Below are positions 41,042-54,968 of a DNA stretch of 64,000 nucleotides, in pieces. The notes under the pieces were generated by a model that was given only the letters and a program-made list of their open reading frames with translations, did not search any database and had not been told where the DNA came from. A program made the position numbers and the translations under genes. The stretch comes from Caballeronia sp. Lep1P3 (lineage in GTDB: Bacteria; Pseudomonadota; Gammaproteobacteria; Burkholderiales; Burkholderiaceae), in NCBI RefSeq assembly GCF_022879595.1, contig NZ_CP084269.1, positions 62,001 to 126,000 of the forward strand, written 5' to 3'. The first letter of the stretch is position 1. Every line of letters begins with the position of its first letter.

Positions 41042-42850
41042 CTAGGCCGCTTCAGCAAAAAGGCTTAACTGCGTTGGGTCGAATCCCAACAGCGCGTCAT
41101 GTGCGTCGTCGCCAATCGCGTTCCCGATCAGATGGGCATCCAGCTCGGCCGGCGTCAGATTCAGACGCTGAGCGAGTCGTGAGAAGTACTGCCCCCGCTT
41201 GGCCATATCCTGATACCGCTGGGCCATGCCGGTCGGCAACTTCACGATGCCCTCGTTCAGCCAGAAATGCGCTGAATCGATGGCGTGGCGATGCTGCGTG
41301 TGCAGCATGAAGGCCGTGTCGTACGTGCAGGTGACGAACAAACACGCTGCTTGCGCATCGACGCTGAACTGCGAGGTCTCCTCGAAATACACCGTCTGCT
41401 CACCGCCTGTCGTCCTCGCATACCGCCCTGGCCGACCGGGATGCCGGTACGGATTCCACTGCTCGGCATCGAATGAGCGCAGCCCGACCGACGGTGCTTC
41501 CCGGTCGTACTGCCCGACCGGATACCAGCCGTGCAGGATGATGTCGGTCTTCGGCAAGCCGTCGAGCTTTCGAACCGGATAGCGACGGCCGAGCACGTTC
41601 ACATCGTGCCAAACCGCAAGCGCCGGGAACGCGTGCGGCGCATAGTGATGCATCGACAGGAAGAAGTCGATGGCCACCAACTGCTGCGGCGTCACGAACT
41701 CGAACTGCGGCTCGCACAGCAGCCGATTTTCTTCGGTGTCGGGAATCGATCCAGTCGCCAGTGCCCCCGAGTGCGCTTCGGCACGGTCGCGTTCGGCCGC
41801 GTCGATACTGCAGAGCTTTTTGAGAAAGTCGACTCGCGTCGCGAAGCTGTAGGTGTCTGCCTGGATGCGCGTGTAGCCGGCATCGCTCAGCGAACGTCCC
41901 ACCAACTCCCGGCGCGACATGTCCCACTGGATCGCAAGCAGATAATTGCGAAAGTCGTTCAGCGGACGAAGATGCCCGTACTGTTCATCCTCGATGATGG
42001 CCTCGAGTGACTTGTCGCGGTCACCCGCGACGCAACAGAATGCACACCCGAACCTGCTACCGCAAGCTGCACGCGCACCCGATTCGCCCACAACGACACC
42101 GCACATTCCTCCATTGCCAGCGCGGTAGATCTCCGACAGGCGGTGGATCGTGCTAGGTGCCAATGGCGAAAGAAACGTCAGGTTCCGAGCATCGGCCAGC
42201 AGCGCGAGCATCGTCCAAACATCATCGGACGTCCAGTCGCTGAGGGGAGAGATCGTAAGCGCCCCTGTTCTGCTTCTAACCGCATGATCGGCGCTATCGC
42301 GTCTCTCAGCCATTGCGACCGCACGGGAGGTGCTCTCGTCCCTGCGCAGCCCCAACACCGTTAAAACTTCGCGAGCACCGTCATCCGCCGCCCGTCGTTC
42401 AAGCAGTGTTCGAAGCCGACCTCCCGGCCGTACCTTCCATTCGTCGGCGCACGCTCTCGTTCGTCTACCGTCACGCACGCCATTCTCAGGCGTACGTACC
42501 AAGGTGCCGCGTCCGATCGTCGAGACGACAAACTGACTTGCTAACGAAGGTGTCGTCACGTGAACCTGTACGGCCAACGCCGACGCTTCGATATACAACT
42601 GCAGCTCCTCCAGCACTGAGTGCAGGAAGTTCGCGATCGTTGGGTTTTCGATGGTCGTGTCGGCCGACTGCACATGGTGTGTGATCGTCGTGCCGCCCGA
42701 ACGGCGAATCGCCTCAAGCATCAACACCAGCGTACACGTGCTGTCCTTGCCGCCCGAATAGGCGCAGCTCAAGCTATGCCCAAGTTCGATGTATCGCTGC
42801 ATGACGCTGATCGCAGCTTCCATCTTCGAGAAAATTTCCTGTTCCATCAT
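41042..42850 (-). CDS. DndC-like ATP pyrophosphatase (PAPS reductase family)
   Basis: 602 residues. PP-loop SGGKDST at 32-38 binds ATP. Cysteines at about 250, 263, 269 and 272 (CGSRFGCAFCCVAGDRDKS) match the iron-sulphur site of DndC, which activates DNA for sulphur insertion in phosphorothioate systems. The long C-terminal part (about 300-602) is not known to me. No dndB, dndD or dndE is nearby. The nearest genes are a TGT/DpdA-like protein and SbcCD-like proteins, so it may belong to a DNA modification set. Start ATG 42850 is preceded by GGAGCGAGC, its site hidden in a hairpin. Confidence 0.85.
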   Translation of the reverse strand: MMEQEIFSKMEAAISVMQRYIELGHSLSCAYSGGKDSTCTLVLMLEAIRRSGGTTITHHVQSADTTIENPTIANFLHSVLEELQLYIEASALAVQVHVTTPSLASQFVVSTIGRGTLVRTPENGVRDGRRTRACADEWKVRPGGRLRTLLERRAADDGAREVLTVLGLRRDESTSRAVAMAERRDSADHAVRSRTGALTISPLSDWTSDDVWTMLALLADARNLTFLSPLAPSTIHRLSEIYRAGNGGMCGVVVGESGARAACGSRFGCAFCCVAGDRDKSLEAIIEDEQYGHLRPLNDFRNYLLAIQWDMSRRELVGRSLSDAGYTRIQADTYSFATRVDFLKKLCSIDAAERDRAEAHSGALATGSIPDTEENRLLCEPQFEFVTPQQLVAIDFFLSMHHYAPHAFPALAVWHDVNVLGRRYPVRKLDGLPKTDIILHGWYPVGQYDREAPSVGLRSFDAEQWNPYRHPGRPGRYARTTGGEQTVYFEETSQFSVDAQAACLFVTCTYDTAFMLHTQHRHAIDSAHFWLNEGIVKLPTGMAQRYQDMAKRGQYFSRLAQRLNLTPAELDAHLIGNAIGDDAHDALLGFDPTQLSLFAEAA

Positions 42851-42904
42851 GCTCGCTCCGAAAAAAATAGGAGCGACCCTTTCGGGATGCGCTCCCGAAA
42901 GGGT
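42851..42904 (-). promoter_or_regulatory. structured leader of the DndC-like gene
   Basis: On the minus strand: ACCCTTTCGGGA and TCCCGAAAGGGT form a perfect 12-base hairpin (42876-42904, five-base loop), then TCGCTCC (42870-42876) pairs with GGAGCGA (42853-42859) around a T-rich loop. The second stem hides the GGAG that sits five bases before the ATG. The hairpin loop end (GGAGCG) could also pair with the same CGCTCC, giving two exclusive states. Confidence 0.6.
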
Positions 42905-42924
42905 TCAAAGGGTCAATGGCTGAA

Positions 42925-43740
42925 TCAAATCAAAAGGTCAGCCGTCGCACGTTGCGCCTCTTCCAGACCGTCGTGCGCTGCGGCAAACATGTCTGCTTGC
43001 CGTGTTGCTCTATCCAGCCGAGGAAGCGTCTTTGCATACCGGCTCACGCTAGTACCGTCGAAGCTATCCGCACCGGCGGCCGCGCAGATGCGGATGCGCC
43101 GCGCCGAGTTCACGCGACCGACGTGCAAGTAGCAGTGACGCCGTCGCGCGAGGGACCCCCACACGTGCGCCGTCTGCTCTTTCCACTCTGTCGAACCGCC
43201 AATGAAGATGCCGACAGCAGGCGACAGAAGTGATGCGAGGTCATCGACCTGCATACCGTTCTGAACTGCGATCAGCATCCGGCACGGCATCCCGCGAAGT
43301 CGTTCCAGCCACTTCAACGAGTAGTCGAGCGAGGCCATGCCGCCCATGACGATGTCCGGAAGGACAAGCCAATCGGCCCGCTCGCGAAGCCGTTCGACAG
43401 CAACAGAAAACGCGTGCTCGTCGAAGGGCAGGCCCTGCTGGTAAGCGGTCCATGCGCCGTTATCCAACGCATAGCGATCGAAGCCCTCGGTACGCAACTC
43501 GCCCTTAGCCGAGACCAACAAGCGCCAGTCGGCACCCTTGAGTGCGGCCAGGTTGCGGCGGGTACCCGTGCGACTCGCGTAACCGACGAGCGGCTGCCGA
43601 TGCATGGCGATCCGCTCTTCAATTTCCGGGTCATCGTCAGCAGATCCATCGACTCCATAGTAGTCAGCGTACGCCATCAGGGCTTGTGCGTAGCCGGTCC
43701 TCTGGCCACTGGCGTATTGCTCCAGCCACGGCGGCGTCAT
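42925..43740 (-). CDS. TGT/DpdA-like transglycosylase
   Basis: 271 residues from ATG 43740, coupled to the gene upstream by an ATGA overlap. Resembles tRNA-guanine transglycosylase and the DpdA family that inserts 7-deazaguanines into DNA: ALDNGAW with Asp93 (the DSGGF site), VLPDIVMGG with Asp129, VQNG at about 159, GIFIGGSTEWK at about 177-187, and GADSFDGTSVSRYA with Asp228 (nucleophile). All three Asp are kept, so it should be active. It is shorter than bacterial TGT and lacks the zinc site seen there. Target, RNA or DNA, is open; the company of nucleic-acid enzymes favours DNA (inference). Confidence 0.7.
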   Translation of the reverse strand: MTPPWLEQYASGQRTGYAQALMAYADYYGVDGSADDDPEIEERIAMHRQPLVGYASRTGTRRNLAALKGADWRLLVSAKGELRTEGFDRYALDNGAWTAYQQGLPFDEHAFSVAVERLRERADWLVLPDIVMGGMASLDYSLKWLERLRGMPCRMLIAVQNGMQVDDLASLLSPAVGIFIGGSTEWKEQTAHVWGSLARRRHCYLHVGRVNSARRIRICAAAGADSFDGTSVSRYAKTLPRLDRATRQADMFAAAHDGLEEAQRATADLLI

Positions 43741-43922
43741 TGACGCACCCCGCTTTGGGGTTGCACTCTGCCGCCGATGATCAGGAAGACCTTCGTATCG
43801 ACGTCGCGGACCCACGGTCGAACTTCGCCCACGTGCGTCGCGGTTCCGGCAATGTAGCCAATCGCCGCTTCGAGGTTGGGAAACCGCTCGGGCGATGCAC
43901 CCAGCTTGGCTGCTTCAAACAT
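43737..43922 (-). CDS. small hypothetical protein before the TGT-like gene
   Basis: 61 residues from ATG 43922 with GGAG seven bases upstream (within a structured leader). Sequence FEAAKLGASPERFPNLEAAIGYIAGTATHVGEVRPWVRDVDTKVFLIIGG; a compact helix-strand protein of unknown role. The stop overlaps the TGT-like ATG. Confidence 0.6.
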   Translation of the reverse strand: MFEAAKLGASPERFPNLEAAIGYIAGTATHVGEVRPWVRDVDTKVFLIIGGRVQPQSGVRQ

Positions 43923-43981
43923 AAAGACACTCCACACAAAGAATGCGGAGCGACCCCAGCGGGTCGCCTGCCCGCAAGGGT
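43923..43981 (-). promoter_or_regulatory. structured leader of the small gene at 43737-43922
   Basis: Minus strand: ACCCTTGCGGG and CCCGCTGGGGT form a hairpin (43953-43981) with two mismatches, then CGCTCC (43947-43952) can pair with GGAGTG (43928-43933), the ribosome site. Same order as the leader at 42851-42904. Confidence 0.5.
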
Positions 43982-44013
43982 TGAGAAAAAAAATTAAACG
44001 GCGTTTTTGCCGC

Positions 44014-44401
44014 TTACTCGATCAGCTTGACGCGTTGCCACCAGCGACCGCCCGAAGGCAGGTCCCTGACGAAAGCGAAGTTCTCCGCTTCATCGCGCGT
44101 GAGCTCGATCACGCCGCCCTTCAATATCGCCGTCTGGAGATAGACGACATTCGCGAGGGCGAGCGCGCCATGCTGTTCGGCGATGGCGGTCAGTGTTTCG
44201 ACGGCATCCAGCAGTTCCGCATGGAACTGCTTCGCGTCAGCGGCGAGGCGCAGCGACACGTCCGCGTCGCTAATCGCCCCCAACACCGCATCACACTGAG
44301 CTTGCGGTTCGTCAGGCCCGTACTGCTCGGGCTTGATCCAGCTTCGGAATCACCATGTCGTTGAGTACGTCGTCGACGAAATCAGTGCAGGAATAGGCCA
44401 T
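44014..44401 (-). pseudogene. small hypothetical gene, frame broken by a one-base indel
   Basis: ATG 44401 (GGAG six bases upstream) starts MAYSCTDFVDDVLNDMVIPK, which reads into a stop at 44312. From about 44330 another frame continues SWIKPEQYGPDEPQAQCDAVLGAISD and on to 44014. Removing one base in GGG at 44329-44331 joins the two into a natural 128-residue protein. A real mutation, a programmed shift or a sequence error are all possible. Confidence 0.55.
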
Positions 44402-44441
44402 GGAAGGCTCCAGTCAAGAAGTGGAAGACAAAAAGCCGGTG

Positions 44442-44621
44442 TCAGATGCGACGCAGACGGCCGTTATCAAACGCAGATGCGCGACGCAGGTACGGCGGGC
44501 GCGGCGGCTGCGATTGAGCAGTAGCCGGTGCAGCTTCCTGCGCAGGCGGCTGGTGCGGCGCCGCTTTCGAATGGGACGGGCTGCCGGCTGCCGCGAGCAG
44601 CAGCATGAGAACGTTTGCCAT
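44442..44621 (-). CDS. possible small Pro-rich exported peptide
   Basis: 59 residues from ATG 44621. Starts MANVLMLLLAAAGSPSHS, a possible signal, followed by a Pro/Ala/Gln stretch and a basic end. The leader upstream (hairpins at 44672-44699 and a GCGCC/GGCGC stem) shows no clear ribosome site, so it may not be expressed. Confidence 0.35.
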   Translation of the reverse strand: MANVLMLLLAAAGSPSHSKAAPHQPPAQEAAPATAQSQPPRPPYLRRASAFDNGRLRRI

Positions 44622-44671
44622 AGAGATAGCGCCGGAAGGCGCGAGACAGGAGTCAGAAAGACGAGAAGCGC

Positions 44672-44699
44672 CCCTTGTGGGGGCGACTCCCCACAAGGG
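44672..44699 (-). promoter_or_regulatory. hairpin of the repeated leader type
   Basis: CCCTTGTGGGG and CCCCACAAGGG form a perfect 11-base stem with a six-base loop. It lies 13 bases after the stop of the SbcC-like gene and before the small genes, in the same place and with the same outer bases as the other leader hairpins. It lacks a T-run, so it is not a classical terminator. Confidence 0.5.
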
Positions 44700-44711
44700 T
44701 TAATAGAAAGA

Positions 44712-47033
44712 TCAGGCGGCAAGCGCCTGTACGTCGATGACTGCGTCGGCCTCTGCCACAAGGTCGGGCGTCTGTGAGATGAAGAACTCCCGTTGATACC
44801 CGCCTTGGCGCAGCACTTCGCGTTTCATGCGCATGAACTGCACTTTGCGCTCGGGATCGAGCGGGCCGTCTGACTCGTCGCTGAACAAGGTCCGATACGG
44901 CTGACCGGTGTTCTGCGCGAGATAGAGCGCGATGCCCCGCGTGAGGCACTCGTTGATCCAGACCTTCTGACCGCCGGACATGACGGAGACCGACTTGCTG
45001 CTGTCGGACTCGGCGTCGTGAACCAAAATCTCGAAGCCCTCACGCAGTTCGCCGCTTGCGAGCGTGCGCTGCGTGCGGATCTCCACCGTGAAGCGCATGC
45101 CGTAGCACGCGAGCAATAGCTCGTTGACGGTGTGCGTCAGCGCTGGACCCGCGTCATCGATGGTCAACGCGATCACCCCGTCGTTGCCCAAGCCCTTAGC
45201 CAGCAGCTTCCATTGCGCGATCTCGTCGGAGAGGCGATCGGCACGCATCTGCGTGGCCGAGAACTTCTCCAACTCCAACGCCAACGCTTCCGCTTCGGCC
45301 TGCAAGACACTCTGCGCGCGGATCGATTGCTCGATTCGACCATCCAGTGCCGCGACGGTCTCCCGGTTCGCTGCAATGTCGCGGCCCAGCTTCGCAACGG
45401 CGGCTGTCACATCGACGGCGGCCAGTCGCCCGACCTCCTCGGTAATGCGAGCAAGCTCCGCTTCAATACGCGTCTTCTCAGACTGGTACTTGGCGGTACG
45501 TGCGGCACTTTCCTCGGCGATCGAACGCAACTCAGCTTGCGCGGCTTCAAGTCCCGATACGGCGGCCTCCAGCAATGGCTTAGTGGCGGCAAGCTCTGCC
45601 GCCGCCTGCAAGGCACGGCGCAATTGCGCCGCCGCATCGGTGATGGCGAGCATCTCGACACGCTTCGCCGCCAACTCAGCCGGCACAAGCGCCAAGGCTT
45701 CGGCATGCGCTTTTTTCTCGCGATACTCCGCGCGAAGATTCGCCACCGAAACACGCTGCACTTCCGCTTGCTCTTTCGCCTGGAACGCTTGCGCGAGCAG
45801 CGGACATTGCGCATGCATCGAATGACCGACGCACGGCACTTGGTCCGCAACAGCCGCCTGCTTGCTCAGCGTCTCGAAGTGCGCGGCTTTCGTCGTGCCC
45901 TGGTTCATCAAGCTGGTGAGCGTCGCATCGAGCGTCGTCAACGTCGCGCGTTTGACCTCCAACTCGGCAATGTCGCGCTGCAAAGGAGCAAACCTCGCTT
46001 CCTCCCGCGCAATCGCCAATTCGGCTTCCTCGCGTTTCGCCGCCGCACCGAGGATCGCCTCACGGCGAGCCAGCGTTGCTTGGTGCGTGGTCACTGTTCT
46101 ACTCAGCACGGAAACGCGCTGCTGACAGCGAACCGCCGCTGCCTGCTCGTCGTCGGCCGCGCTTCTCAGGGCACGCCCCAACTCGTCGCGGCGCACGCCC
46201 AGCTCTCGAAGGCGCGCCTCGGTCGTGGCCGATTCACTCTGCTTGGCCGCAAGGGTCGCGCGCTCTTGAGTCAGCTTGCTCGCATGCTCAAGCGCGGCAT
46301 CGCGTTGCTCCCGAGCGGCACGCAGGGTGTTGCCCTGCGCGACGATCGACCGCTCAGCGTCGGCTTTACGTTGCCGCTTTCCTGCAAGCGCGCCAAGCTC
46401 AGACTGGATGCCTTCTAGCGACTTGCCGAGCACCTTCGCGACCTCACCGGCTTTCGCCGACAATGCCTTCAGGTGGTCGATGCCAAGGAGTTCGGCCAGC
46501 AGCGTCTTGATTTCGCCCGCACCGTAGGACGCGAGCGGCCGCCGGTTTTGAGCCGAGAACACGCTCGTGAAGAACGTCTCCAACGAACCGTTGATCGCTT
46601 CGACACAGCGGTTATACGACTCCGCCTTGCCGTCCGACACCGTTCCGTCAGGCAGCGACACCGGACGCCACGTACCGTCGACGCCGCGATAAGCAAGGTA
46701 ATACTCCGCCTTGCCTGTCTTGCCGGGCTTGCGGAACGCGAAGGACGAGCGATAGCGGATGCCGTCGTGCTCCCACTCGAGTTCCTTCAGCGCACTGGTG
46801 CCCCCGATGTGATCCCAGTACGAAAAGGCGTCGACCGACAGCTTCGAGGCACGCGACGGCATGATCGGATACGGATGTAAGTTGTCCATGATCGTGGTCT
46901 TGCCCGCCCCGTTAGGGCCGGTCAAGGCGATTAGGCCATCCGGCAACGCTTCCAGATCGAGCGTCACGCTCTCGCGCTTCATGCCATCGCGCACACCAAC
47001 GAAGCCTTCCAGTGTCAGTTTCAGAGGCCGCAT
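44712..47033 (-). CDS. SbcC/Rad50-like ATPase
   Basis: 773 residues, shorter than SbcC (about 1050). Walker A GPNGAGKT (39-46); long coiled coil; signature VSVMSGGQKVWINECL; Walker B-like RTLFSDESDGPLD near 725. The hook region has CVGHSMHAQCPLL instead of the usual CPLC, so zinc joining is unsure. With the SbcD-like nuclease it should process DNA ends or hairpins. It overlaps the preceding gene by 13 bases. DndD of phosphorothioate systems is a relative, but the SbcD partner points to SbcCD. Confidence 0.85.
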   Translation of the reverse strand: MRPLKLTLEGFVGVRDGMKRESVTLDLEALPDGLIALTGPNGAGKTTIMDNLHPYPIMPSRASKLSVDAFSYWDHIGGTSALKELEWEHDGIRYRSSFAFRKPGKTGKAEYYLAYRGVDGTWRPVSLPDGTVSDGKAESYNRCVEAINGSLETFFTSVFSAQNRRPLASYGAGEIKTLLAELLGIDHLKALSAKAGEVAKVLGKSLEGIQSELGALAGKRQRKADAERSIVAQGNTLRAAREQRDAALEHASKLTQERATLAAKQSESATTEARLRELGVRRDELGRALRSAADDEQAAAVRCQQRVSVLSRTVTTHQATLARREAILGAAAKREEAELAIAREEARFAPLQRDIAELEVKRATLTTLDATLTSLMNQGTTKAAHFETLSKQAAVADQVPCVGHSMHAQCPLLAQAFQAKEQAEVQRVSVANLRAEYREKKAHAEALALVPAELAAKRVEMLAITDAAAQLRRALQAAAELAATKPLLEAAVSGLEAAQAELRSIAEESAARTAKYQSEKTRIEAELARITEEVGRLAAVDVTAAVAKLGRDIAANRETVAALDGRIEQSIRAQSVLQAEAEALALELEKFSATQMRADRLSDEIAQWKLLAKGLGNDGVIALTIDDAGPALTHTVNELLLACYGMRFTVEIRTQRTLASGELREGFEILVHDAESDSSKSVSVMSGGQKVWINECLTRGIALYLAQNTGQPYRTLFSDESDGPLDPERKVQFMRMKREVLRQGGYQREFFISQTPDLVAEADAVIDVQALAA

Positions 47034-47569
47034 GACAGGTCCTCCGACACAGTCATCGAAGCCGACATAGCGGCCATCTGCGAGTAGAACGCGTCGTCAT
47101 CCTCGTTGGGAAACGGCTCGTTCATCACGACAGACGGCACAGACTGCACCGCTGCTTTGGGCGCGTGGAGCGTTCCGTCTAGTGCGGCCGCCACGTTGCC
47201 GCAGACTCTGCCGAACTCGCGACGCGCGTTCGTCAGAAGCTCGGACCAACCGCTATAGCCGGTCAGGCTACGGATCTCGGCAGCAGACCACTGACTTGCA
47301 TAGCCTTCCTGGTAGGACCAGAGAAGGTGCTGCATTTCGACCGTGGGCGTGACTGCAACTTCGCACGCGCCGGGCGTCGTGGCGATCAGCAACAGCGTCT
47401 GACCGAACTGCGCCAGCACTGCGCCGCGGTACTGGCCGAACGGCTGATGCTGGATTGCAGCGGTAAAGCCTGCCAAATCGACCAACGACTTTTGAAGATC
47501 ACGCGATGAGCAGTCGCCCACCGCGAACGTGCGGACCCAGGTCGGGCCAGCGGGATAGAGACCAAACAT
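47021..47569 (-). CDS. hypothetical protein between SbcD- and SbcC-like genes
   Basis: 182 residues, ATG 47569, site GGAG within a stem. Globular start (MFGLYPAGPTWVRTFAVGDC), then helices and an acidic, low-complexity end. Family not recognised. Its fixed position between sbcD- and sbcC-like genes and the overlap suggest a role in the same complex or its control. Confidence 0.6.
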   Translation of the reverse strand: MFGLYPAGPTWVRTFAVGDCSSRDLQKSLVDLAGFTAAIQHQPFGQYRGAVLAQFGQTLLLIATTPGACEVAVTPTVEMQHLLWSYQEGYASQWSAAEIRSLTGYSGWSELLTNARREFGRVCGNVAAALDGTLHAPKAAVQSVPSVVMNEPFPNEDDDAFYSQMAAMSASMTVSEDLSCGL

Positions 47570-47630
47570 GATGCACTCCGTTATGGTGGGCGGAGTGCGG
47601 CCCCGGTAGGGATCGCTCCCCGCCAGGGTG
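47570..47630 (-). promoter_or_regulatory. structured leader of the gene at 47021-47569
   Basis: Minus strand: an imperfect hairpin (ACCCTGGCGGGG with CCCTACCGGGG, 47601-47629) is followed by GCACTCC (47592-47598) and, after 12 bases, GGAGTGC (47573-47579), a perfect seven-base stem that contains the ribosome site four bases before the ATG. Confidence 0.6.
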
Positions 47631-47796
47631 AAAGAAGAAATGAACTGCTAGAGAAAGGCCCTGCCACTACGAATCGATGCGTCAAAGACGCGGTGAAACC
47701 TCTGTTTCGATAGCGACGATCAAAATCGGCTATCGGAACACGGCTCGCGTGTCCAAGCGAAGGAGCCATACTGGCCTCCTCTGCATGAGCGGCTAC

Positions 47797-49221
47797 TTAC
47801 GCCGCGAACAAATCATCGTTGAGCCACGAAAGCTGACTTGCCGAAGCCGACTCGACGATTTCCACCGTCGCATCGGGCATCGGTAGAGCGTCGCCGACAT
47901 CGTCACTCGGAGCTTCTTGGACAGTCACCGGCGAAGGCTCGGATATGCTCGACAATGCGGGCAGCCCGTCATTTGCGAACGGATGCGCCGGCTCTGCATC
48001 GCTCAGTCGAGCCAGCACGCCAGCAGCGATTGCGTCCGCGTCCCCCGTTTCCAGCAACTGCAGCCGGTCAAGCAAGGGCGCCGGATCGACATCAGCGTGT
48101 TCGCACCAGCGCTCGATCTTCCGATCAATCGACGTTTCGAGGCTGATGCCTTGCGCGCGTGATCGCACGACCGGAAGAATGCGAGCTTCGACCTTCAGCT
48201 CGGCCGCGTTGCCGAACAGCGCCGCGATCGCGTCGCGGTCCACTGACTGTTTGTGTTCTTCGTCGACCTGCCAACGAATTCGCACGAACTTGTCGGTTGC
48301 ATCGAGCGCGATTGCCGTCAGGCGTTCCATGTCGGGCGGTCCGTCAAAGTCGACGCAGATCGTCTGCCGAGACGGCGTCACGACCAGATCAGCTTGCGCG
48401 CTTCCCACGTCGACATTCCACATGAGGAAGCCCTTGTCGCCTTCCTCGCCGTAGTGGAATCGCCCGATCGAACCGGGATACGCCACAACGCGCCCCGCTC
48501 GCTCCCACTGCTGTGCTTTATGGATGTGCCCAAGCATGAACGCATCGCATTCGGCCTCGAATAGACTGCCAAGCGAAAACTCATGATCGAACCCCGCCAT
48601 CGTCACGCCGTGCTCGGTCGTACAACCGTTGACCGTGCCGTGTGAAACCCCGACAGTCCGTATGCCTGCGGCACGAAGCTGCTGGTTGACGCGCCCTGCT
48701 GCGGCGAGATAGTCGCCCAGCACGGCTTCAAGACCCGTCCCGGCTTCCTTGGCACCAACAGCGACCGCCAGCGCCCCCTTATTGACCGTGGGCAGACACG
48801 TGAACACGACATCAGCGCCGATTGCCAGAACCTCGCGCAGCTCGTCGTCCGAGAACACCGGGCCGTCCGACGGGTAGAACCGCCCCTCGTGGAGGCTTAC
48901 CTGCTGCACGCGTTCCGCAAGATAGATTTGATGCGTCGTTGCCATCAGTTCGAAGTTGCGCAGCGTGCCCGGCGGCTCATGCGAGAACGTGCCCTGCAGC
49001 ATCAGGACCGGCATGCTGCCGCTCAGACCGTTGATGCGGCGTGCGAGGCGGTTCAACGACGGCGCGTGTGCGTCGAGACGATGGTCCGTCGCATCACCCG
49101 AGATGACTGCCACGTCGGCATGGGCCAGCACCGCATGGTCGATGCCGAAACCGAAGCATCGGTCCGACTCTTCGATGTTGCCCGGCGCGTAGTGCAGGTC
49201 AGAAAAATGTGCGATCTTCAA
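47797..49221 (-). CDS. SbcD/Mre11-like nuclease
   Basis: 474 residues from TTG 49221, chosen because AGGAGG lies five bases upstream and the product then starts LKIAHFSDLHYAPGN, the first metal-binding motif (DLH). Further motifs: VAVISGDATDHR, LMLQGTFSHE (where Mre11 has GNHD, here GTFSHE), VGVSHGTVNG, FMLGHIHKAQ. The GNHD change removes the usual Asn/His/Asp, so the nuclease may be altered. C-terminal 150 residues are unlike SbcD. Partner of the SbcC-like protein. Confidence 0.85.
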   Translation of the reverse strand: MKIAHFSDLHYAPGNIEESDRCFGFGIDHAVLAHADVAVISGDATDHRLDAHAPSLNRLARRINGLSGSMPVLMLQGTFSHEPPGTLRNFELMATTHQIYLAERVQQVSLHEGRFYPSDGPVFSDDELREVLAIGADVVFTCLPTVNKGALAVAVGAKEAGTGLEAVLGDYLAAAGRVNQQLRAAGIRTVGVSHGTVNGCTTEHGVTMAGFDHEFSLGSLFEAECDAFMLGHIHKAQQWERAGRVVAYPGSIGRFHYGEEGDKGFLMWNVDVGSAQADLVVTPSRQTICVDFDGPPDMERLTAIALDATDKFVRIRWQVDEEHKQSVDRDAIAALFGNAAELKVEARILPVVRSRAQGISLETSIDRKIERWCEHADVDPAPLLDRLQLLETGDADAIAAGVLARLSDAEPAHPFANDGLPALSSISEPSPVTVQEAPSDDVGDALPMPDATVEIVESASASQLSWLNDDLFAA

Positions 49222-49243
49222 ATCGCCTCCTATAAATGAAAAT

Positions 49244-49261
49244 GGCCACCCGAAGGTAGCC
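49244..49261 (-). promoter_or_regulatory. hairpin in the leader of the SbcD-like gene
   Basis: Minus strand GGCTACC-TTCG-GGTGGCC: seven pairs (one G-T) closed by a UUCG-type tetraloop, very stable. It sits about ten bases before AGGAGG. Differs in sequence from the other leaders but has the same hairpin-spacer-ribosome site order. Confidence 0.5.
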
Positions 49262-49302
49262 AGTATTTGCCGACGCACCGCTAGGGCGCGCTAAGAAAGG
49301 GA

Positions 49303-49785
49303 TTACGTTGACAGCGTGTCGCGGACTTTCATCAGCGCCTCGCCCAGAAGGTTCTGGCCGCGCCACTTCGATTTGTCCGTGATGTCAGGATGATGCTCGC
49401 CTAAGCCAACGCCCCAGATCAGATCGTAGGGACTGGCTTCGACAAGCTCGGTCGGTGCCGTTGCGAGCAACAAGGTCCGAAGGCCCGGATGCTGTGCGAA
49501 CTTCTCACGGCATCCGACGTAGACGATCGACTCGCGCTTAGCCTTCCAGGTATCGAGGTCGAAGCCCCTGACCTTCCGGCCAAGCGCTTTCTGCTCTTTC
49601 GGTAGATGCGTGGCAAGTACAGCTTCGGCAATGTCCTCGTCACCGAAAAGCTTGGCTTTCGAAAACATCATGAACTGCTCTACCGACCGGAAATCGACGT
49701 CATGGTAAGTAAAGCGGCACGGGTGCCAGTTACTAAAAGCGTCCTCCGCGCCGAAGAACAGCGTGAAGTTGCCGACTCTACGCAT
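49303..49785 (-). CDS. NADAR-domain protein (YbiA-like)
   Basis: 160 residues from ATG 49785. NADAR signature: FFGAEDAFSNWHPCRFTYHDVDFRSVEQFMM (about 9-40), KAKLFGDEDIAEAVLAT, LDTWKAKRESIVYVGCREKFAQHP and IWGVGLGEHHPDI. NADAR proteins are N-glycosidases; some remove ADP-ribose from guanine in DNA and act as antitoxins to DarT-like enzymes. No ADP-ribosyltransferase gene is seen in the window. It sits inside the DNA-processing block. Confidence 0.88.
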   Translation of the reverse strand: MRRVGNFTLFFGAEDAFSNWHPCRFTYHDVDFRSVEQFMMFSKAKLFGDEDIAEAVLATHLPKEQKALGRKVRGFDLDTWKAKRESIVYVGCREKFAQHPGLRTLLLATAPTELVEASPYDLIWGVGLGEHHPDITDKSKWRGQNLLGEALMKVRDTLST

Positions 49786-49922
49786 TGGAAGCTCGTTCGC
49801 GTGAACAAGTAGATGGGCCGCCGAAGCGGACGGATTCGATGCGCAAGTGCAGCGCGGTCGAAAACATTTGAGCAAGCGGTTCTTGCTGAAATGCTCTCAT
49901 GCGCGAGTGTAGAAGAAAGGAT

Positions 49923-49945
49923 GCCAGCCCCCGAAGGGGACTGGC
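49923..49945 (-). terminator. hairpin after the phage-like zinc protein gene
   Basis: Minus strand GCCAG-T-CCCC-TTCG-GGGG-CTGGC: nine pairs with one bulge and a UUCG loop, followed by a pyrimidine run (ATCCTTTCTTCT). It lies six bases after the stop at 49951. May be a terminator or an mRNA-stabilising hairpin between operon members. Confidence 0.5.
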
Positions 49946-49950
49946 CAAGG

Positions 49951-51276
49951 TTAGACGTAGGCGGCTTGTGCAATCGCGTCCTGAATTTCGACGTCGAGCG
50001 AGGAGGGATCGTCGAGCGCATTCTTGAGACGCGCATTCATCGCATCTACATCAGCGATGCGTTCGATCCAACCGCGACCGTAAGTCTGGTGCGCGTACTT
50101 GCGAAAGCCGTTCTGTCGTTCCGGCTGACTGAGGCCCAGACGATGCAGCAGGTCCGACATGCGGTGACGCTTGTCTTCCAGCGTCTCGTCGGGATCCGGC
50201 GAGTCGTCGTCGTGACCATCAGCGCCGTCGATGCCCGATGATGCGCCATCGCCTGTCAGTGCTTCCCCGGTCTGCTGCTCTGGCTGAAGGAGCGGATCGC
50301 CCATCGACTGTACCGTTCCGTCCGACTCCAGCAGCGCCACTGCACGACTGGCAGCATCGAGCGCCGGTTGAGCCTCGTCCGCGCCATCCAGCAGCGCGCC
50401 TAGGTCGATGTCCGCATCGAGCACCGTCAACATCTGCTTCTGACGCACGGCCTGGCCATTGTCGTCAATCCGCGTGATGTCGAACTCTTTCTTCGAGAGC
50501 CAGAACCGCGTGCCGGTGAGCCTGCCGCGCGCCAATGCCACGGTCTGCATCGCCGAATACGCCTTCTGCAGCACGTAGATGGAGTTGGTCGGCAGCTCGA
50601 TCAGCCCAAGCCCCTTCACGTCGGGAACTGCAAACAAGAAGTTTGCGGTCAGGTTGCACTTGCGGTCCTGATACTGCGGACAGACGTGAGGATCACAGAC
50701 GCCATCGGGAATGTCGTCGTCTTGCCGGTGAACGACCAGTCGGCCGCCGAAGGATCGACGCGCCCGCTGTGCACGTGCGTTACGCTCGACCGGCGCGTAC
50801 GTCTTGCAATAGCGTTTGCCGTCGCGGTCGTACTCCGAGAAGTACTGTCGCCCGGTAGTCGTGTACGCGGCCATCTGATTTGGCACGTTGCGCAGCCAGT
50901 CGTCGAACGCAAACATGATCGGGAAACGGTAGAGCCGCAATCCTTGCCCGCGATCCTCGCCATACAGCCGCAGGATTTCGTCGGCCGTGTCCGGATTGGA
51001 GAAGTCGGAGCGTCTGCAAACGAAGTAGTCGACGTTTCGCGGAATCAGCGCGTTGCGCAGCTTCAGCGAAGTTTCGAGCAGCTTGCCGATGGCTTCGAAC
51101 GACTCGCCCGCTGCCACCATGTCGTTGTACAGCTTGACCGCTTTTTCGTTGGACTGGTGCGCCCGCGTGAGCACTTTGATGCCGGGCCGAATTTTGCCGA
51201 TCGTAGGCGGGCGAATAGCTCGTTCTTCAACGAGGCTACGCGGCGCGTGATCGAACATCTGAACAACTGCATTCAT
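49951..51276 (-). CDS. phage-like metal-binding protein (recombination directionality factor-like)
   Basis: 441 residues from ATG 51276, coupled by ATGA to the gene upstream. Conserved look: VCRRSDFSNPDTADEILRLYGEDRGQGLRLYRFPIMFAFDDW, YTTTGRQYFSEYDRDGKRYCKTYAP, then a cysteine group (GVCDPHVCPQYQDRKC) that likely binds zinc, and FWLSKKEFDITRIDD. Such proteins occur in phages and mobile elements near recombination genes and are sometimes named recombination directionality factor. The C-terminal 150 residues are acidic and disordered except for the end. Confidence 0.65.
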   Translation of the reverse strand: MNAVVQMFDHAPRSLVEERAIRPPTIGKIRPGIKVLTRAHQSNEKAVKLYNDMVAAGESFEAIGKLLETSLKLRNALIPRNVDYFVCRRSDFSNPDTADEILRLYGEDRGQGLRLYRFPIMFAFDDWLRNVPNQMAAYTTTGRQYFSEYDRDGKRYCKTYAPVERNARAQRARRSFGGRLVVHRQDDDIPDGVCDPHVCPQYQDRKCNLTANFLFAVPDVKGLGLIELPTNSIYVLQKAYSAMQTVALARGRLTGTRFWLSKKEFDITRIDDNGQAVRQKQMLTVLDADIDLGALLDGADEAQPALDAASRAVALLESDGTVQSMGDPLLQPEQQTGEALTGDGASSGIDGADGHDDDSPDPDETLEDKRHRMSDLLHRLGLSQPERQNGFRKYAHQTYGRGWIERIADVDAMNARLKNALDDPSSLDVEIQDAIAQAAYV

Positions 51277-51542
51277 GACAGTTTCCTTGCAAGAAAGAAG
51301 ATGGCGTTGGTCCGCAGTGATTCGGCCTGAGATTGCATCTCTCGGGCTGCCGCACTGCCGCGACGTTCGCTGATATGGGAAATGAAGACAGAGCGCTCTG
51401 CGTCGCTGAACATCGCGACCCGAGCTACTTCGCACCGCTCACGCCAAACGGGGGACGTGGTGTCCGCCTGCTCGCGCTCGGTATTGATTTGATGCGTGAT
51501 GGCCTCGGCGATACGTTGATTGAGGCGGTCGGGCAACAACAT
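51273..51542 (-). CDS. small hypothetical protein, first gene of the block
   Basis: 89 residues from ATG 51542, GGAGGT eight bases upstream. Helical, basic: LNQRIAEAITHQINTEREQ, FSDAERSVFISHISERRGSAAA. Possibly a DNA-binding or regulatory protein; family not known. Promoter-proximal gene of the minus-strand operon. Confidence 0.6.
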   Translation of the reverse strand: MLLPDRLNQRIAEAITHQINTEREQADTTSPVWRERCEVARVAMFSDAERSVFISHISERRGSAAAREMQSQAESLRTNAIFFLARKLS

Positions 51543-51591
51543 AGAACAGCACCTCCGTTGAGAAATTTCCGGCCGCAGGAAGCGACAGGCG

Positions 51592-51623
51592 AAAAAAAAG
51601 CCCGCTCCCGTGAGGGAGCGAGC
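51592..51623 (-). terminator. strong terminator or attenuator in the leader of the 41-51 kb operon
   Basis: Minus strand GCTCGCTCCC-TCAC-GGGAGCGGGC, ten pairs (one G-T), followed by eight T (51592-51599). A classical intrinsic terminator, but it lies 50 bases before the first gene of the operon and there is no gene upstream on this strand. So it must end a non-coding transcript, or control entry into the operon. Confidence 0.85.
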
Positions 51624-52182
51624 TTCTTGAAATCGATATAGAGACCTACGCGCCACGTCCCTTCCGGGGACGTGGCGTGCAGGGAGCGGCCGGCATAAGC
51701 CGGTGTCGCTCGGTCAGAGAACGTAACGTCGTTCTCGCGCAGCATGGTCACGCCGCGCAACAGCCCTTTTCGGATTTACTTCCGCCGCAGGAATCACGGA
51801 TCAGCCAACTTCGATCGTTCTACCCAGATCAGGCTCTGGAGAGAGAACACCCGAAAACCCGGGTTCGAACGATGTACCGGCGCAAATGAATGCGGCTCAG
51901 GTACGAGTATCACGGCTGAAATTGGGGAGTGTGTAGCGAGCACACTCAGCACAAGAAGATTTCCACACCGGTAGCTATCCGGTCGGAGCATGCCAACGCG
52001 CGAGGCGGGCACGACTTGCAGAAAAAAGATGGACTCCGGGCTTGGAGTCGAGGTCGATGCGTCGGTGACGCGGGGAATGGAGTTGAGTATCCGGGTTATC
52101 GACGCGAGCGTGCGGGTGAAAGCTCACGAATTTGACCTAGCTTTCGCCGTCTTGACTCTTGCCTAAACAATGAAAATCTTAT
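51624..52182. other. hairpin-rich non-coding region between divergent operons
   Basis: No convincing gene. Perfect inverted repeats: CGCCACGTCCC/GGGACGTGGCG (51651-51677), GAGAACG/CGTTCTC (51717-51736), AACCCGGGTT (51856-51865), GAGTGTG/CACACTC (51927-51947), GACTCC/GGAGTC (52032-52049) and GCGTC/GACGC (52059-52071). The terminator at 51592 closes the left side. Could be a structured RNA, a regulatory leader, or an origin of transfer. Confidence 0.5.
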
Positions 52183-52215
52183 GTGAGAGAGAACACAGAC
52201 ATACCGAAACCGATC

Positions 52216-52812
52216 ATGGCTGGTACCGACATGGAAGCACCTGAAGACGGATTAAGACCAAGCTCACCTCCGGTCGCGCCGACTGGCGAGAGCGGTCTTC
52301 GGCGGCTCGACCGCCTGACCAACGACAGCCGGCTCGCGCGAATCCATGCGGATACACTGGCTAAGACCGAACTGCCATACCACTCGGGATTCGCACGTGA
52401 GTTTTTGCGGGGCGACTTCAACTTTGCAGCAGCGAAGATGACCGTCGCTCGCGGCGGCAAGCTCATCGCTATCGAATCTGAATTTCGAGTGGCCGAGGGC
52501 TGGTTCCGCAAAGCAATGTCTTGGGCCAATGAACTGCCCAAGAGGCAGACTGCGACGTATCCGGAGATAGTGACGCTCGAAATCAAGCACGCGATGTCTG
52601 GACGATTGGTACGCCTGCTGACTATCTATGACCAGCTCTTCTTACTGACGATGGGCGCACTTATCGCTCGATCGTTGGGCTCGGAAGCTCGCCAGAGCAC
52701 CCTCGATGCCGCTCAGACGCGGATTCGCAAGATCGCCTATCTCTGTATTTTCGACAACGATCGCTTTGCCCCCGAAGGTGTGTTGCTTCCCGACCCTGGT
52801 CAAGCCCACTAA
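52216..52812 (+). CDS. mobile-element protein, DUF1845-like
   Basis: 198 residues from ATG 52216 (GTG 52183 and ATG 52231 are alternatives; none has a strong ribosome site). After a disordered start, helices dominate: ATYPEIVTLEIKHAMSGRLVRLLTIYDQLFLLTMGALI, the pattern of DUF1845 proteins found next to conjugation genes. Role unknown. First gene of the rightward transfer-side operon. Confidence 0.55.
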   Translation: MAGTDMEAPEDGLRPSSPPVAPTGESGLRRLDRLTNDSRLARIHADTLAKTELPYHSGFAREFLRGDFNFAAAKMTVARGGKLIAIESEFRVAEGWFRKAMSWANELPKRQTATYPEIVTLEIKHAMSGRLVRLLTIYDQLFLLTMGALIARSLGSEARQSTLDAAQTRIRKIAYLCIFDNDRFAPEGVLLPDPGQAH

Positions 52813-53766: not shown

Positions 53767-54219
53767 ATGAAAACCGAACTCAACATCACGCTTATCGCGC
53801 GCGGCTGCGCCATCACCGGCGACATGGTCGTGGATCACGGCATTTCGTCTTTCGGCCTGCTCGACGGCGGCATCATCTCCACGCAGGGTCTGCTGCACAT
53901 CGGCGAAGGCGGCCTCGTTAAGGGCAGCGCACAGGGCGAGCACGTTCGCATTGACGGGCGCGTTGACGGCGATGTGCACGCGCGTGGCTCGCTGGAAATC
54001 AACGGCCAAGTCTCGGGTGACATCTTCTACTGCGGCACGATCCGCCTCGGTCCGCGTGCGTCGCTCAACGGCACGCTCAAGCGCGTCGCCAGAATGCTGA
54101 CGATTGAGGCCGATTCGACGCCGGACGAAGGGCCTATCGCCGGTCCGCGTTTGGACGACACGAAGGGCCAGGAACGCACGGAATCGAACGTGACGGAGAT
54201 CTCGCGCGCCATCGCCTGA
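53767..54219 (+). CDS. bactofilin family cytoskeletal protein
   Basis: 150 residues. The DUF583 beta-helix core is clear: NITLIARGCAITGDMVV, LHIGEGGLVKGSAQGEHVRIDGRVDGDVHARGSLEINGQVSGDIFYCGTIRLGPRASLNGTLK. Bactofilins form non-nucleotide filaments on the membrane and position partner proteins. Here it follows the membrane-anchored protein by 13 bases, so it may organise the transfer apparatus (inference). Confidence 0.9.
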   Translation: MKTELNITLIARGCAITGDMVVDHGISSFGLLDGGIISTQGLLHIGEGGLVKGSAQGEHVRIDGRVDGDVHARGSLEINGQVSGDIFYCGTIRLGPRASLNGTLKRVARMLTIEADSTPDEGPIAGPRLDDTKGQERTESNVTEISRAIA

Positions 54220-54536: not shown

Positions 54537-54562
54537 AGCCCGCCTTGAGCGGGCTTTTTTTT
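54537..54562 (+). terminator. intrinsic terminator of the 52-54.5 kb operon
   Basis: AGCCCGC-CTTGA-GCGGGCT followed by eight T. A perfect seven-base stem and T-run on the plus strand. Confidence 0.92.
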
Positions 54563-54692
54563 GGCTGTAGCCACGAGAATCAGCGTTTCATCTGACGTTG
54601 AGCGACTATGCGGATATGCCGACCGCTTTCGCCACGGCGTGCACATGGACTGCAAGCACTTTCACTCTTCGACTTCACTGACTGAGGCGACC

Positions 54693-54968
54693 ATGCCTGA
54701 CACCGTCCCGAAGCCTGAGCACGAGTTCCTCAACGCGCTCCGCAAAGAACACAAGCGCGTCTCAGTTTTCCTGGTCAATGGAATAAAGCTGACAGGCCGC
54801 ATCGAGTCCTTTGATTCGTACACGGTCTGTCTGAACGCGGCGACGGGCCCGCAGGTGATCTTCAAGCACTCCATCTCGACGGTCAGCGAGGACCGCGGTC
54901 GCCCTCAGAACTCTGAGCGCCACGAGCGCCCTGATCGGCGCCCACGCCCCGGGCAGAAGGTGCCATGA
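54693..54968 (+). CDS. hfq: Hfq RNA chaperone variant
   Basis: 91 residues from ATG 54693, GAGG six bases upstream. Sm1 motif [30 protein letters not shown] and Sm2 IFKHSISTV are present. Compared with E. coli Hfq, Gln8 is Glu, Tyr25 is Phe, Gln41 is Ser and the rim Arg16-Arg17 pair is reduced (RKEHK), so RNA choice may differ. A basic tail with RPRPGQK follows. Plasmid-borne Hfq paralogues are known in Burkholderia; it may tune expression of the transfer or leader RNAs here (inference). Confidence 0.92.

Follow-up and report, generated by a model that had tools for sequence, protein, structure and literature searches.

Do the genes of a long minus-strand run on a plasmid of Caballeronia sp. 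Lep1P3 act together as one undescribed DNA modification system and, if they do not, what might the run do for the plasmid? The stretch analyzed ("the window", 64,000 nucleotides, G000:C5:62001-126000 of a 6.18 Mb genome in six contigs) contains, from 51542 down to 41042, genes that an initial annotation had proposed as a candidate for such a system or for an anti-defence block on a transfer element. The run is present as that annotation described it, and profile searches agree with the identities it gave (a phage-like zinc protein, which is Gp3-like, and NADAR, SbcD-like, SbcC-like and DndC-like proteins). It consists of a stable backbone and, behind this, a slot whose contents change and which here holds a TGT-like and a DndC-like gene. 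From the computed gene families, conservation, RNA, TGT fold and viral QueC partnership we judge, with a probability of roughly 60%, that the block serves "entry and survival" in a family of plasmids that carry transfer genes and that a DpdA-type enzyme in its slot shields plasmid DNA. No description of the gene set as a whole was found in the open-licence literature; its parts are of known kinds, and what is new, as far as the literature searched goes, is a plasmid DpdA-type subfamily apart from QueC, its conserved slot and a longer sbcD RNA.

A stable backbone and a changing slot

The window was compared with homologous stretches of Caballeronia NK8 pNK84, a Paraburkholderia sabiae plasmid, a Burkholderia cenocepacia plasmid, the Paraburkholderia PGU19 and 22B1P plasmids and B. 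vietnamiensis pBVIE02. Its gene order is kept on pNK84 and the P. sabiae plasmid. A stretch of Cupriavidus pHG1 has the Gp3-like, SbcD-like, 182-amino-acid and SbcC-like genes and is without TGT, DndC and NADAR, and because it carries exactly those four we count them as the stable part; on a Piscinibacter plasmid the Gp3-like, SbcD-like and SbcC-like genes were seen. In the window, where all genes of the run are on the minus strand, the Gp3-like protein (441 amino acids, 49951..51276; PF18897 7.2e-41 on the longer reading frame) is taken to start at an internal ATG near the start of its pNK84 homologue. The SbcD/Mre11-like phosphoesterase (47797..49278, the longest open reading frame, so that its start is uncertain) matches phrog_100 at 4.9e-9 and PF12850 at 2.3e-5, the latter under the curated cut-off. 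It is followed by the gene for the 182-amino-acid protein (47021..47569), which overlaps the SbcC/Rad50-like ATPase gene (773 amino acids, 44712..47033; phrog_77 1.2e-39; 58 plasmid records) by 13 bp. Phosphoesterase and ATPase genes thus stand together, with one gene between them, as an SbcCD pair identified by the two PHROGs families; their Pfam Metallophos and AAA_23 scores are under the respective cut-offs. The 182-amino-acid protein had no match at E 0.1 in four family libraries and is found in 46 plasmid records at E 1e-3 (Cupriavidus, Burkholderia, Paraburkholderia, Caballeronia and Robbsia).

The NADAR family protein (160 amino acids, 49303..49785, start set with the help of the annotated pNK84 homologue; PF08719 2.9e-49, TIGR02464 161.1 bits with a cut-off of 73.7) is present in many other loci on Burkholderia, Paraburkholderia and Caballeronia plasmids and absent from 22B1P and two further loci (L073, L079). 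Its neighbors are the Gp3-like and SbcD-like genes, and none of the ten genes scanned at the locus matched a DarT family. When eight genes were compared with up to 18 relatives, dN/dS came out between 0.03 and 0.25 (two saturated TGT-like comparisons yielded no value); these genes are maintained.

The slot behind the SbcC-like gene holds TGT-like and DndC-like genes on pNK84 and the P. sabiae plasmid, PLD and DndC-like genes on the B. cenocepacia plasmid (PLD occupying the place of TGT), PLD, TGT-like and DndC remnants in a PGU19-type locus, and PLD alone on pBVIE02. The initial annotation would have counted it as support for a system if four or more of the genes co-occurred in other genomes, and they do: among 61 TGT-like genome loci an SbcC-like gene is present in 27, a PAPS-family open reading frame lies within 300 bp in 31, and both are found in 25, although all 25 come from relatives in Caballeronia and Paraburkholderia and so are not independent.

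The TGT-like protein and its QueC partnership in viruses

The TGT-like protein (271 amino acids, 42925..43740), a predicted DpdA-type DNA guanine transglycosylase, belongs to phrog_15826 (4.1e-47), a family marked unknown in PHROGs that gathers 3551 proteins at E 1e-5 among 7997 candidates scored. No Pfam or PADLOC match was obtained, and the TGT profile, searched against PDB sequences, returned only two M-protein matches (best 0.0032), taken as chance. The fold is a TIM barrel of the TGT type, and the conserved residues are D93, D129, Q160, G181-182 and D228, which we take to be the catalytic Asp pair and the base-binding Asp/Gln/Gly set of TGT enzymes. Motif alignments were found with the host TGT, the host DpdA and phage 9g DpdA, with a low overall probability in all three and without support for D129 in the pairwise alignments. 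A second, interrupted TGT-like match lies elsewhere in the genome (G000:C6:169298-169916), in two pieces, one with an in-frame TAA.

The strongest link comes from viral relatives, and it is mainly for this link that we call the family DpdA-type. Of 80 viral records with the TGT family that were fetched, 50 were searched; QueC exceeds the cut-off in 14 of these, a rate without a virus control set, and in all 14 the distance between QueC and the TGT-like match is -31 to 415 bp. In one of them (L130) the TGT-like gene, QueC, a DNA-methylase-like frame (a weak phmmer match) and a PAPS reductase stand in a row. A genomic link to preQ0 synthesis is thus found for the viral relatives, unlike the plasmid copy, which has no QueC alongside. 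Phages are reported (PMC6884629) to carry singleton DpdAs, and expression of phage 9g dpdA alone in E. coli is reported there to give dPreQ0 in plasmid DNA. The family seen here (about 205-271 amino acids) resembles phage DpdA/DpdA2 in TGT fold, motifs and viral QueC adjacency, but it falls in phrog_15826, whereas 9g DpdA matches phrog_887 and phrog_7068; one viral TGT-like relative has a weak phrog_887 match (0.0062). Of the annotation's TGT/DpdA-like label and DNA chemistry, guanine exchange stands as probable, supported by fold and QueC link, while DNA as the substrate is a part that we infer.

Does the host itself make or use such bases? Two strong QueC matches lie elsewhere in the genome, one of them inside a chromosomal Dpd defence cluster (G000:C1:3056000-3075000) with genes for DpdC, DpdB, DpdA, a second DpdB, QueC, DpdD and DpdJ. 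The bacterial Dpd restriction-modification system, whose DpdA has an FD[GS]TS motif, is therefore encoded on the chromosome, whereas none of the ten plasmid-locus genes scanned matches a Dpd model at E 0.1; this agrees with the annotation, which had seen neither dpd partner genes nor queCDEF at the locus. A role of the plasmid TGT-like protein as partner or antagonist of the chromosomal system found no support in the genus (p 0.31, below).

Weighing the readings

In the reading we prefer, a structured sbcD RNA leader would precede the DNA-end-processing backbone of Gp3-like, SbcD-like, 182-amino-acid and SbcC-like genes, NADAR would be an addition to it in many Burkholderia, Paraburkholderia and Caballeronia plasmids, and the cargo slot would lie behind this module. 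After transfer the SbcCD-like module would handle DNA ends, NADAR would strip ADP-ribose marks, and the DpdA-type enzyme would blunt restriction by putting preQ0 made by the host, or a derivative of it, in place of DNA guanine; the slot would also house a DndC-like PP-loop enzyme that acts independently and whose probable task is to put sulfur on nucleic acid or to modify it in another way. Base, restriction protection, co-regulation with transfer, timing, benefit and all of the DndC chemistry are, like the DNA substrate, put forward here conditionally. Replacement of guanine by 7-deazaguanine in DNA is a trick known from phages and a bacterial defence system; our findings suggest that plasmids with transfer genes, and not phages alone, may use it, one of them in a host that has a Dpd cluster as well, and they give a testable function to a large PHROGs family of unknown role. 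Orphan DNA methylases have been reported in plasmid leading regions (PMC11541004), and a term search of that paper returned nothing for NADAR, transglycosylase, SbcC or phosphosulfate.

Several observations weigh against this reading. Profile comparison of the TGT-like protein gave probabilities of 2.7% with 9g DpdA, 0.7% with the host TGT and 1.4% with the host DpdA, so the DpdA kinship rests on fold, motifs and neighbors; plain Foldseek lists other TIM barrels among its best 50 rows, and tRNA may be the substrate. QueC was not seen in 36 of the 50 viral records (many of which are fragments), nor beside plasmid TGT-like copies in the loci examined. In 58 genomes of the genus, Dpd occurs in four, a TGT-like gene (fragments included) in 25 and both in three, which is no association (p 0.31). 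Finally, a leading-region place of the block is putative, as oriT was not located, and the NK8, P. sabiae, PGU19 and 22B1P plasmids are typed MOBP, "mobilizable" only; the B. cenocepacia plasmid and pBVIE02 are typed MOBH with MPF_T.

The other slot enzyme is the DndC-like PP-loop ATPase (602 amino acids, 41042..42850; PF01507 8.7e-13, PADLOC DndC 1.7e-41). Its GKDS motif is invariant in a 36-row alignment and over 90% conserved in a 54-row alignment, and C134, C263, C269 and C272, whose roles we presume to be those of the DndC cysteines, are invariant in both. In the PP-loop motif, cysteine set and profile matches it resembles the DndC, SspD and BrxP members of the PAPS-reductase family; it differs from them in lying on a plasmid without named partners in the loci examined and in a C-terminal half without a family assignment. 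A PDB search with the DndC profile gave weak PP-loop matches only. Full-length relatives in viral contigs were sought by a pattern search, which found two loci, neither full length.

That the TGT-like and DndC-like genes are unrelated accessory genes in the slot, with no part in DNA protection (serving, for example, tRNA modification or sulfur metabolism), is unlikely. The slot contents vary, and the DndC-like protein is widespread (2547 plasmid records at 1e-5, 1999 of them with 80% coverage and 2540 under 60% identity), with relatives on two of the plasmids examined that have no TGT-like gene. Moreover, the DndC-like gene is often interrupted, in Caballeronia at several different residues: in 26 Burkholderiales loci it is one open frame in 14 and broken or partial in 12 (the Pseudomonas loci L088 and L090, the latter one long open frame, are left out of this count), and a single insertion site is ruled out, with breaks near residues 67-69, 135, 208 and 339. 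However, the QueC adjacency in viruses, the DNA-methylase genes near DndC-like or TGT-like genes in several loci and purifying selection on the TGT-like gene (dN/dS 0.04-0.12) all weigh against this reading. A Sphingobium locus (L099:10010-13142) has overlapping frames for a TGT-like protein, a PAPS reductase and a C5 cytosine DNA methylase.

The annotation's own proposal, one undescribed system in which the TGT-like and then the DndC-like protein act by base exchange and sulfur transfer with NADAR and SbcCD-like partners, we regard as improbable. It draws on the closeness of the two genes: of the 61 loci 34 are from Burkholderiales, and in 27 of these the TGT-like gene has a DndC/PAPS-family frame no more than 300 bp away; the pair (TGT-like annotated shorter) occurs together apart from the block on P. 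aromaticivorans pBN4; and in Pseudomonas (L105) and Sphingobium (L099) the TGT family is flanked by PAPS-family genes, which in two viral loci (L129, L130) lie 1.5 kb from it. But on the B. cenocepacia plasmid a PLD gene takes the place of TGT, and pHG1 manages without TGT, DndC and NADAR. Of the best 23 DndC-like plasmid records, at least 15 have an SbcC-like gene within 10 kb and only six a TGT-like gene anywhere. In the 50 viral records PF01507 is over its cut-off in five (seven at E 0.001), 1.5-7.2 kb away and again without a virus control set, and NADAR occurs in none, so that a NADAR-TGT link in viruses was dropped. In the 12 loci with a broken or partial DndC-like gene the TGT-like gene is open in nine (not in L068, L072 and L076). 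Synonymous divergence from Caballeronia relatives is 0.51-0.87 for the DndC-like and 0.22-0.31 for the SbcC-like gene, and because the former exceeds the latter, separate exchange of the two is suggested. With slot contents that vary and a DndC-like gene that decays independently, a single nine-gene system was set aside.

From the same decay and divergence it follows that a joint reaction of the two slot enzymes is a tenuous possibility. Improbable, too, is the fuller version, in which the DpdA-type and DndC-like enzymes of an RNA-led operon would together produce an undescribed base, such as a 7-deazaguanine carrying sulfur, as a shield for transferred DNA, with NADAR and the SbcCD-like proteins undoing the ADP-ribosylation and the broken ends that the recipient causes. 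Incomplete phosphorothioation, with the DndC-like protein, a host cysteine desulfurase and unseen partners placing sulfur in the DNA backbone, fits the DndC profile matches and conserved cysteines but is very improbable, as the score for the NCBIfam DndC equivalog TIGR03183 is 140.1 bits against a cut-off of 290.4 and the annotations around the DndC-like gene, in the stretches examined, name neither a dnd nor an ssp gene. Genome searches for DndE and DUF4007 (SspB) had no match, but no control gave a signal either.

The upstream RNA and the transfer setting

Upstream of the run lies an RNA that the initial annotation had missed, a match to the Rfam sbcD RNA (RF01757; 51642..51791, minus strand, 111.5 bits with a gathering threshold of 40, E 1.1e-20). 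As in the Rfam family, it is found in Burkholderiales before a run with an sbcD-like gene; a table of 2010 (PMC2864571) gives sbcD RNA as likely for this order and puts a question mark at its regulatory role. A terminator-like hairpin with a run of eight T (about 51590-51625) follows it before the first gene, and the 311 nt of 51590-51900 fold with a z score of -6.07. On the 5' side, conserved structure here extends beyond the Rfam model by about 300 nt: the whole region (51580-52110, minus strand) is about 530 nt long against 155 nt for the model. In a 23-row alignment the mean identity of 25-nt bins from 52100 to 51750 is 0.81-0.97, and in the 5' extension (51927..52105, minus strand) 0.81-0.95. 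The AcaB-like coding sequence, by comparison, has 0.43-0.72 over eight bins, and the first small gene 0.77-0.88.

The extension contains a covarying hairpin (51927-51947), chosen after seeing the data, since it was found by reading the alignment and then checked by script. Its GAGTGTG/CACACTC stem becomes GAGTCTG/CAGACTC, GAATCTG/CAGATTC or GAGCGC/GCGCTC in relatives; five to eight pairs can form in each of the 23 rows, and 12 of 160 gap-free cells are unpaired in the alignment as made. RNAalifold over the 23 loci drew 126 pairs, 15 of them changed on both sides, with a covariation term of only -3.4, and did not draw this hairpin. The region may act as a leader that controls the run, as a small RNA of its own or, during transfer, as a single-stranded DNA element; in each case a described but unexplained RNA is tied to a defined plasmid gene block, with conserved structure longer than its model.

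The first gene after the RNA encodes a small DUF7696 protein (89 amino acids, 51273..51542; PF24751 2e-16 on the longer reading frame, start from the pNK84 homologue) and is overlapped by the Gp3-like gene by 4 bp. Two small open reading frames lie between the SbcC-like and TGT-like genes, one of 90 amino acids (44014..44286; weak phrog_17586 match, 0.093) and one of 66 (43737..43937), which overlaps the TGT-like start by 4 bp as a small gene does in the same manner on pNK84.

The transfer-element setting that the annotation proposed is supported by a family scan of the window, which places a UvrD-type helicase, DUF4400 and TraD-type and TraI_2 proteins to the right of the block, with a frame that has no family match and whose homologues are annotated as ATPase; LigD lies to the left. 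The divergent gene at 52183..52812 (plus strand) had no Pfam match of its own in the scan, is linked by phmmer to AcaB-family genes (L043, L052) and is annotated AcaB family or DUF1845 regulator on five of the six homologous plasmid stretches. DUF4400, TraD and an AcaB-family gene close to the block recall IncC/SXT-type conjugative elements, to which we presume the plasmid is akin. On a Halomonas plasmid and a Salmonella island PAPS-family genes lie within about 15 kb of exonuclease or bet genes, whereas here SbcCD-like genes are near the PAPS-family gene and may have replaced bet/exo.

A bactofilin gene (53767-54219, plus strand; PF04519 6.1e-15) adjoins the transfer region, and at its position related plasmids (pNK84, B. 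cenocepacia) are annotated "polymer-forming cytoskeletal protein". The plasmid also encodes an Hfq (54561-54968, plus strand; PF17209 2.7e-21), and directly 5' of its longest frame is a match to the Betaproteobacteria toxic small RNA (RF02278; 54504-54562, plus strand, 54.6 bits with a gathering threshold of 50).

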